A DNA stretch of 10,238 nucleotides from Frankiaceae bacterium (lineage in GTDB: Bacteria; Actinomycetota; Actinomycetes; Frankiales; Frankiaceae): assembly GCA_030840885.1 (NCBI GenBank), contig JAVEDQ010000144.1, positions 1-10,238 of the forward strand, written 5' to 3'. Positions 5,279 to 6,167 of the stretch are shown here, in pieces (positions within the stretch are counted from its first letter, which is position 1; every line of letters begins with the position of its first letter). The notes below the pieces were generated by a model. The model was not told the origin of the DNA. It saw only the letters and a list, made by a program, of their open reading frames with translations, and searched no databases. The translations under genes were made by a program, and so were the position numbers.

Positions 5279-5292
5279 CACACCGGTGTCAC
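5275..5292 (+). terminator. Stem-loop on the CAP gene stop codon
   Basis: GTGACAC (5275-5281) and GTGTCAC (5286-5292) form a perfect 7-bp stem around ACCG. The TGA stop (5276-5278) is part of the first arm. There is no T tract. The position, exactly at the gene end and before a long untranslated leader, favours a terminator that separates the CAP gene from the riboswitch-controlled gene. Confidence 0.5.
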
Positions 5293-5445
5293 GGCGATGC
5301 GAGCCGGTGACGCCGAAGGTGTGACGTAACTGGTCAGACCGCCCGTCGGGCCGCTTCGACCTCCGCGCTCACGACTTCGATGTCCGTTATGTGAGGTTTG
5401 TCTCGGCAACCATTCCGCGACATGTCGGTCGTCCTGTCGTTGAGT
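5293..5445. other. Gap upstream of the riboswitch leader
   Basis: No gene is supported here. The stretch should contain the promoter of the NlpC/P60 gene, but I found no pair of -35 and -10 hexamers that I trust; TTGTCT (5398-5403) and CATGTC (5421-5426) have 17-base spacing but a poor -10. The palindrome CGACATGTCG (5418-5427) is a possible protein site overlapping that weak -10. Confidence 0.3.
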
Positions 5446-5503
5446 GTGCTTGCAACGAGCAAGCACTTGGGCCGCACGCCGAGTTCCGCCCCCGGCCCAA
5501 GTG
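5446..5503 (+). ncRNA. Two overlapping stem-loops in front of the riboswitch
   Basis: Hairpin 1 pairs GTGCTTGC (5446-5453) with GCAAGCAC (5459-5466) around AACGA: 8 perfect pairs. Hairpin 2 pairs CACTTGGGCCG (5464-5474) with CGGCCCAAGTG (5493-5503): 11 perfect pairs, plus a possible G-U at its base. The two share CAC (5464-5466) and cannot both form fully. The 18-base loop of hairpin 2 (5475-5492) contains the 5' strands of riboswitch helices P1 (5477-5480) and P2 (5484-5491), so hairpin 2 as drawn competes topologically with the ligand-binding fold. Pairing is read directly from the sequence; a regulatory role is inferred. If transcription begins after about 5465, only part of this exists in the RNA. 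Confidence 0.5.
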
Positions 5504-5657
5504 TCCGAACGAGAAAACTCATGGGGCGGAAGTGGGGGAACCACCGCACGTCGCCGGCTGACCTCGTCAGCCGGCTTGGGGTGAAGCCGGGTCTTCTTGA
5601 CCGGCCGGGCAGCCCAGCCCGAATCCGACAGCTCACCCCGCAGGCGAACGGGAAGGA
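5477..5657 (+). promoter_or_regulatory. c-di-AMP riboswitch (ydaO/yuaA leader)
   Basis: The conserved blocks of the ydaO class appear in order: GCCGAGTTCC (5478-5487), GGGGGAACCAC (5534-5544), GGGGTGAA (5578-5585), and CGAATCCGACAGCTCACCCC (5620-5639) followed by GCAGGCG. Pairing supports the fold: P1 CGCC 5477-5480 with GGCG 5643-5646; P2 TTCCGCCC 5484-5491 with GGGCGGAA 5524-5531; GTGG 5532-5535 with CCAC 5541-5544; a 9-bp hairpin GCCGGCTGA/TCAGCCGGC at 5553-5575; GCCGG/CCGGC at 5586-5605; CGGGC/GCCCG at 5606-5621; and the long-range GGGGTGA 5578-5584 with TCACCCC 5633-5639. The GGAAGGA ribosome binding site (5651-5657) follows P1 by four bases. The class binds cyclic di-AMP and usually turns expression off; in actinobacteria it typically precedes cell-wall hydrolase genes, as here. 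Confidence 0.92.
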
Positions 5658-5663
5658 ACTTCT

Positions 5664-6167
5664 GTGCCCTCTCACGTCCTGAACGTGGAGTCTTCCGCCG
5701 CCACCTCCGACAGCACGCCCACGAGCACACCGCGTCCGACGCGCCGCCTCGTCGCCACCCGGATCGCTGCCCTCGCCATGGCCGGCGCCGCCACGGTCAG
5801 CCTGACCGCGTGCCACAGCACGGGTGGCTCCAACTCCCGTGCCGTCGGCATCGCCGCAGCGCAGGCCGGCGAGCCGTACGTCTACGGCGCCACCGGCCCG
5901 AACGCCTTCGACTGCTCCGGGTTCACCCAGTACGTCTACCGCCAGCTGGGCAAGAGCATCCCGCGCACCGCCAGTGCGCAGGCCGCTGCCGCCGCCCCCG
6001 TCTCGAGGAGCGCCGCCCGCCCCGGCGACCTCATCTTCATCGGTTCCCCGGCCTACCACGCCGGCATCTACGCCGGTGGCAACAAGATGTGGACCGCGCC
6101 CAAGTCCGGCGACGTGGTGAAGCTGCAGACGATCTGGAGCTCCAACTACCGCGTCGGCCGGTTCTGA
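5664..6167 (+). CDS. NlpC/P60 family lipoprotein, probable peptidoglycan endopeptidase
   Basis: This 167-residue protein has a Ser/Thr/Pro-rich n-region, TRRLVA (26-31), a hydrophobic stretch (about 32-47) and a lipobox LTAC with lipidated C50. The TRRxVA pattern resembles a Tat signal. The NlpC/P60 domain fills 57-167: YVYGATGPNAFDCSGFTQYV with the nucleophile C84, RPGDLIFIG (119-127), and YHAGIYAG with catalytic H132. The third catalytic position, usually His, Asn, Gln or Glu about 12 residues after the His, falls on T144 (KMWTAPKSG), so activity or its mechanism may differ. There is no SH3, LysM or coiled-coil domain, so the protein is a bare catalytic domain. By family it cuts stem-peptide bonds in peptidoglycan outside the membrane. 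The GTG at 5664 has GGAAGGA six bases ahead. The c-di-AMP riboswitch upstream ties its expression to wall or turgor state. Confidence 0.92.
   Translation: MPSHVLNVESSAATSDSTPTSTPRPTRRLVATRIAALAMAGAATVSLTACHSTGGSNSRAVGIAAAQAGEPYVYGATGPNAFDCSGFTQYVYRQLGKSIPRTASAQAAAAAPVSRSAARPGDLIFIGSPAYHAGIYAGGNKMWTAPKSGDVVKLQTIWSSNYRVGRF

Follow-up and report, generated by a model that had tools for sequence, protein, structure and literature searches.

Riboswitches that bind c-di-AMP (the ydaO/yuaA leaders, RF00379 in Rfam) precede genes for cell-wall hydrolases in Streptomyces, Frankia, and their relatives. The RNA that was crystallised is 108 nt long (PMC5393176), and the aptamer is described as containing a long-range pseudoknot (PMC5393176, PMC9337991). 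In the Rfam model, the 10 nt upstream of P1 are unpaired, and the hairpin that follows P1 has 2 bp and a short loop. How these riboswitches switch when they lack a canonical terminator is presented as unsettled in the accessible text of one report (PMC9960051), according to which the C. glutamicum nlpC riboswitch has no such terminator and probably exerts translational OFF control. Transcription termination has been reported for S. coelicolor rpfA (PMC10117811). In another class, the SAM/SAH riboswitch, the RNA forms a pseudoknot in which a stem-loop is coaxial with the knot helix (PMC7367207).

Here we describe the leader of a c-di-AMP riboswitch from a Frankiaceae bacterium, lying in a stretch of 10,238 nt that we call the window. 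It contains a helix, H2, between the leader and the loop of hairpin P2 that is missing from the Rfam model of RF00379. We consider it likely that H2 serves as the first stem in an H-type pseudoknot attached to the aptamer, where it would clamp the P1/P2 junction. Judging from the sequences compared below, H2 is probably a part of the c-di-AMP sensor and not a competing switch, and the leader pseudoknot, which probably lies at the 5' end of the transcript, has probably been added to the aptamer in many Actinomycetia.

The aptamer and its leader

The only match in the window above the RF00379 gathering score of 38 covers positions 5484-5661 (55.9 bits, E 4.6e-11). All features given here are on the forward strand. 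The aptamer itself, taken from P1 to P1 with ends set by pairing, spans 5477-5646: the 5' strand of P1 (CGCC, 5477-5480) pairs with its 3' strand (GGCG, 5643-5646). The Rfam alignment sets P1 at 5494-5497 instead of 5477-5480 because P2 has a long loop in the window. We use 'P2' for the hairpin following P1, and published numbering may differ. Its 5' strand, TTCCGCCCC (5484-5492), pairs with GGGGCGGAA (5523-5531). The gene context also agrees with RF00379, as a cell-wall gene lies downstream: a gene for an NlpC/P60 peptidase of 167 aa (5664-6167; PF00877, E 1.3e-22), presumed to be the regulated one. It is preceded by a Shine-Dalgarno-like sequence, GGGAAGGA (5650-5657, identified by eye), 3 nt downstream of P1. 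The genome (63% complete) holds another c-di-AMP aptamer, likewise upstream of an NlpC/P60 gene (L002:1194-1369, G000:C515), that has H2 as well, with 10 of 11 positions paired.

A preliminary description of the locus, made from the sequence alone, had placed two perfect stem-loops of 8 bp and 11 bp with three common bases directly upstream of the aptamer. Checking each base bore this out. H1 (5446-5466) has arms at 5446-5453 and 5459-5466 that form 8 perfect pairs around the loop AACGA. H2 has 11 perfect pairs between a 5' arm at 5464-5474, the candidate pseudoknot stem S1, and a 3' arm at 5493-5503; bases 5464-5466 belong to both hairpins. Both precede the aptamer, and the 18-nt loop of H2 (5475-5492) contains the 5' strands of both P1 and P2, as had been stated. 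This loop consists of a 9-nt segment, L1 (5475-5483), which holds the P1 strand and GAG, followed by the P2 5' strand, the candidate stem S2. The P2 loop begins with the 3' arm of H2, which takes up 11 nt and adjoins the P2 5' strand with 0 nt between them. An A-rich segment of 19 nt, L3 (5504-5522), then leads to the P2 3' strand. H2 thus crosses P2 (5464-5474/5493-5503 against 5484-5492/5523-5531) on disjoint bases, in the same order as the two stems of an H-type pseudoknot, and it has no base in common with P1 or P2.

Elsewhere in the window, two neighbouring small frames at 230-888 resemble, by eye, a Phd-type antitoxin and a RelE-type toxin. A plasmid search gave 41 records with partial matches.

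Conservation of the leader helix

We read 151 loci, among the matches listed, from an RF00379 search of 58 genomes (the window's own included) that had matches in at least 57 of them. Two loci lacked an anchor, and the filters left 161 rows at 147 loci, chance anchors among them. A filter that required P2 to have at least 6 bp and to lie where expected kept 118 rows at 117 loci, 110 of the rows having a P2 loop of at least 18 nt. H2 was first spotted in these loci, which are mostly from Frankiaceae. We also scanned named genomes with a pattern of P1-P2 and GGGGGAMC that required a long gap and left the leader unconstrained. It yielded at least 119 stretches, with 80 named among the matches listed, and 121 of the 122 matches listed were usable, one being lost for want of a 4-bp P2. 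Both sources together gave 230 sequences and, at less than 75% identity, 127 representatives among the matches listed. L003 was left out for its false P2. The counts on the 127 representatives, the pattern-scan set, and the 188 H2 carriers exclude L224, which is inside the totals of 123 and 119; this sequence is titled Vibrio cholerae, fits the actinobacterial aptamer pattern, and has 63.1% G+C in 8 kb, which suggests a mislabelled or contaminated assembly. Of 296 genomes sampled across the class, 113 carry the long-loop pattern, as do 45 of 115 genera.

Leaders pair with their own P2 loops far better than with those of other sequences. Among the matches listed, the 127 representatives have a pairing score of 20.6 with their own loop against 11.2 with a swapped one (z = 27.9, 5000 permutations). 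Of these representatives, 98 have an H2 of at least 7 bp, compared with 21.8% of swapped arms, and 117 one of at least 5 bp, compared with 53.2% of swaps; the 29 representatives below 7 bp, again among the matches listed, include 10 below 5 bp. Each of the first ten positions of H2 shows at least three Watson-Crick pair types in the listed representatives. The pattern scan, whose pattern is silent on H2, gave similar figures among the matches listed: at least 7 bp in 91 of 121 sequences and at least 5 bp in 114, and, for the 72 representatives from outside Frankia, z = 18.2 and at least 7 bp in 53. When the arms were slid along the sequence in this set, the scores of the listed matches were 6.8-11.2 against 19.8 for the true arms. 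An origin of H2 by chance was ruled out by the swapped-arm and slid-arm controls.

An H2 of at least 7 bp was found, among the named loci in the matches listed, in 36 of 42 from Streptomyces, 6 of 6 from Frankia, 2 of 2 each from Nocardioides and Arthrobacter, and 2 of 5 from Kitasatospora, and in single loci that include Kribbella, Cellulomonas, Isoptericola, Terracoccus, Pseudarthrobacter, and Promicromonospora. It was not found among the listed loci of Modestobacter (0 of 2) and Embleya (0 of 2), nor in the single ones of Kocuria, Streptantibioticus, Mycobacterium, Jiangellales, and one further MAG.

We built a plain alignment from 27 Frankiaceae leaders out of the 51 listed. They were picked for a common leader type showing H1, a selection that favours H1. 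In this alignment, 92.1% of the cells of H1, 92.5% of those of H2, and 100% of those of P2 are paired, and shifting the partner by one column cuts pairing to 35-45%. Cells changed on both sides number 36 in H1 and 24 in H2, compared with 13.7 and 9.4 after shuffling, and 0 of 500 shuffles matched either value. The numbers of doubly changed pairs and of pair types were not above shuffles for H1 or H2 in these 27 leaders, because few pairs vary. P2 has double changes at 3 of its 7 pairs and is invariant at the other 4, so that H2 and P2 have covariation support in the same molecules. The window's own row was retained even if it is one column out of register in H2, where it is mostly scored as unpaired, because its P2 is longer. 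A second alignment was left uncounted since its arms were too gappy. The preliminary description had proposed looking in relatives for compensatory changes; both hairpins carry them in the 27 leaders, and the lack of conservation that would have told against it is not what we observe.

Spacing of the helices

Among the matches listed, the 3' arm of H2 begins 0 nt (82 representatives) or 1 nt (35) past the P2 5' strand in 117 of the 127, and L1 measures 8-10 nt in 116. In the 98 listed representatives with an H2 of at least 7 bp, inward growth of H2 at the expense of L1 or P2 would add 0 pairs in 89 and 1 pair in 9. L3, from the H2 3' arm to the P2 3' strand, has at least 9 nt in all 188 H2 carriers among the matches listed (at least 10 in 187), a set that is not dereplicated, and at least 10 nt in the 98 listed representatives. 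A pseudoknot must have such an L3 to cross H2 and a competing hairpin need not, which favours the pseudoknot; the abutment of H2 and P2, the length of L1, and the lack of inward growth favour it as well. In several Streptomyces leaders (L152, L184, L204, L233, and similar ones), a sequence of about cagtcgtcgcgtcaagcgccg recurs in L3 and may fold into a small hairpin within this loop of the pseudoknot.

The presence of H2 follows the length of the P2 loop. Among the listed aptamers found with the Rfam model, none of the 10 whose P2 loop is at most 21 nt long has an H2 of at least 7 bp, compared with 97 of the 107 whose loop is at least 22 nt long. The 10 short-loop aptamers among these 117 are an undercount because the filter on P2 also removed aptamers with a very short or irregular P2. 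The pattern permitted gaps from 14 nt, and none of its 121 usable sequences among the matches listed had one under 23. The class seems to divide into two structural groups. Five short-loop aptamers (L008, L111, L116, L119, L120) come from genomes of the same class and have no room for H2.

In an idealised A-form model, the deep groove of P2 spans about 12-21 Å for 7-9 bp, and by this rough measure L1 could span it even with the P1 strand inside. A simple groove-crossing rule might predict that each loop grows with the helix it crosses. No such rise was seen for L3 with H2 length (rho -0.29, p 0.004) or for L1 with P2 length (rho 0.12, p 0.25).

The optional 5' hairpin

Among the matches listed, 38 of the 98 representatives have a significant hairpin of the H1 type that ends near the 5' arm of H2 (60 shuffles each, p of at most 0.05), where about 5 were expected. 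H1 is therefore optional, and it mostly stands flush against H2: among the listed matches, the 38 significant hairpins share 0 bases with H2 in 28 cases, one in 4, and at least two in 6, and the best hairpin of each of the 98 has no overlap with H2 in 62. The overlap of the window is the largest of the 38 in the matches listed, with 3 bases if one takes the 11 perfect pairs and 4 with the 12-pair H2 delimited by our script. In the window, an H1 of 8 bp and an H2 of 8 bp side by side, at -29.4 kcal/mol, are as favourable as the best split (6 and 10 bp, -29.5 kcal/mol), and 5 and 11 bp give -27.7 kcal/mol. The three bases shared in the window are a sliding junction and not a conserved exclusion.

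Transcript start and downstream genes

We searched for TAnnnT boxes in the 42 nt upstream of H2 and found them in 90 of 98 representatives, compared with 29 of 480 control blocks taken farther upstream, among the matches listed. Their distances to H2 group at 7-10, 14-18, and 22-34 nt in these listed matches. These boxes suggest that transcripts start at H2, or at H1 where it is present. The preliminary description had considered a start after about 5475 as evidence against its hairpins; this is unlikely given the -10-like boxes of relatives, which point at or before H1 and H2, but the window itself has no clear box. Between 5331 and 5465, we found no TAnnnT, and only TGTCGT at 5435 is in about the right place; no sigma-70-like promoter was found in 5280-5720. 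The promoter of the window may be degenerate or of another type. There is one terminator-like site, at 5571-5590 (0.3 expected by shuffling). An explanation based on a terminator was rejected because this sole site lies within the aptamer.

Among the matches listed, 92 of the 98 representatives have a short P1 of 4-6 bp, and in 96 an SD-like core begins 1-9 nt past the GGC of P1. Ten of 85 candidate downstream frames were looked at: four encode NlpC/P60, three a transglycosylase-like protein (PF06737), one a lysozyme-like protein, one M23, and one none of these, with a rough choice of frame by script that picked the wrong frame for the window.

Folding energies and rival explanations

Programs that forbid pseudoknots show H2 and P2 as alternatives. 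The preliminary description had asked for folds with and without constraints, and the outcome is mixed: H2 appears as a state of -104.7 kcal/mol for 5440-5661, but the state with P1 and P2 has -106.9 kcal/mol, and the lowest nested fold of 5440-5670 contains P2 and lacks H2. A rough sum for the pseudoknot gives -104.2 kcal/mol, with an assumed penalty, coaxial stacking omitted, and helix initiation counted twice.

The same description had read H1, H2, and the aptamer as successively incompatible, that is, as a kinetic switch in which they displace one another and H2, until its turn comes, traps the P1 and P2 5' strands. H2 can indeed form before P2, and transcripts that start at 5444 and end at 5508-5526 contain it in their lowest-energy nested fold; as the chain grows, nested folds alternate between H2 and P2, and without pseudoknots the two states are at most 2.2 kcal/mol apart. 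The energies of H2 and P2 are also weakly correlated (rho 0.22, p 0.03), as a tuned competition would give too, and H1 and H2 have three bases in common in the window. The alternation nevertheless stems from a program that does not allow pseudoknots, and the preliminary description, like such programs, took the crossing of helices for their exclusion. H2 has no base in common with P1 or P2 in the window, its H1 and H2 fit side by side at 8 bp each, and the overlap between these hairpins is missing from most relatives (28 of the 38 with a significant H1, and 62 when all 98 are counted, among the matches listed). The abutment of H2 and P2, the near-constant L1, and an L3 that in every listed carrier is long enough to cross H2 also argue against displacement. 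We thus regard the kinetic switch as unlikely.

A different conflict could involve P1 itself. The H2-P2 pseudoknot might sterically exclude P1 and mark the ligand-free (ON) state, with P1 breaking the knot on ligand binding or the reverse. Strand competition close to a Shine-Dalgarno sequence is a frequent design among riboswitches. L1 contains the P1 5' strand, P1 is short, the longest possible P1 comes within 0-2 nt of H2 in 82 of 98 representatives among the matches listed, and in 8 of these 98 a P1 lengthened outward could invade H2 by 1-3 bases. The two helices share no base, however, in the window or in 90 of these 98 representatives, and rough idealised A-form distances leave space for both; we think this arrangement slightly less probable still than the kinetic switch. 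The idea that H1 and H2 are independent hairpins that stabilise the 5' end, with no tie to aptamer function, agrees with the place of H1 near the predicted start and with its optional nature. It does not account for the lack of H2 in the listed aptamers with short P2 loops, nor for a 3' arm that starts at most 1 nt past the P2 5' strand in 117 of the 127 listed representatives, and we find it very improbable.

Proposed mechanism

In the pseudoknot that we favour, H2 would be closed together with P1 and P2 in one molecule. It would arise from pairing between the leader directly 5' of P1 and the first half of the P2 loop; H2 adjoins P2 and is probably stacked on it coaxially. L1 would hold the P1 5' strand, the A/C-rich L3 would cross H2, and H1 would serve as an optional 5' hairpin flush with H2. 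During transcription, H1 and H2 would close before P2, which would then form across the loop of H2, and the knot would be finished before P1 and the ligand pockets form. It would probably serve to pre-organise and clamp the P1/P2 junction, letting c-di-AMP stabilise the short P1; this helix ends 3 nt 5' of the ribosome binding site, and its stabilisation would lower expression. Together with the accounts of nlpC (PMC9960051) and rpfA (PMC10117811), as far as their accessible text goes, this suggests that P1, once stabilised by the ligand, would hide the ribosome binding site of this gene, and that the knot of H2 and P2 may pre-organise the junction. More tentatively, the long-loop riboswitches of Actinomycetia could be a structural subclass whose transcripts begin in, or a few nucleotides before, a cap made of a hairpin and the pseudoknot; this cap would tie the leader to the aptamer and be an obligatory cotranscriptional folding step that sets the ligand response.

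Comparison with known riboswitches

The window has much in common with the ydaO/yuaA leaders: the core aptamer, P1, the conserved segments GGGGGAACC and CAGCUNACC, and a cell-wall hydrolase gene downstream. It differs from the Rfam model by the additional 11-bp helix that links the leader with the P2 loop. In our reading, the crystallised 108-nt RNA, as given in the accessible text (PMC5393176), begins 2 nt 5' of P1, and its GAAC runs almost straight into GCGGGGGACC; H2 therefore could not appear there. The known pseudoknot of the aptamer is, like H2, a helix that crosses others over a long range within this RNA, but it is described as involving core nucleotides and the right shoulder of P1 (PMC9337991), whereas H2 joins leader bases outside the aptamer to the P2 loop. 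The C. glutamicum riboswitch shares an NlpC/P60 gene with the window, and the single pseudoknot named for it in the accessible text is CTCC-GGAG at the ribosome binding site, not a helix between leader and P2 loop (PMC9960051). We found no description of such a helix in the open-access texts that we searched, and an earlier one may exist elsewhere.

If the pseudoknot is real, constructs beginning at P1 leave out part of the RNA. The knot offers mutants that can be tested, an improved covariance model, and a means of dividing the class into subclasses. The SAM/SAH and preQ1 riboswitches, which are H-type pseudoknots, resemble the proposed knot in combining a pseudoknot with a stem-loop coaxial with the knot helix. 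In these riboswitches, the pseudoknot itself makes the ligand-binding fold. The candidate H2-P2 knot, unlike them, would be a peripheral module that precedes a larger aptamer.
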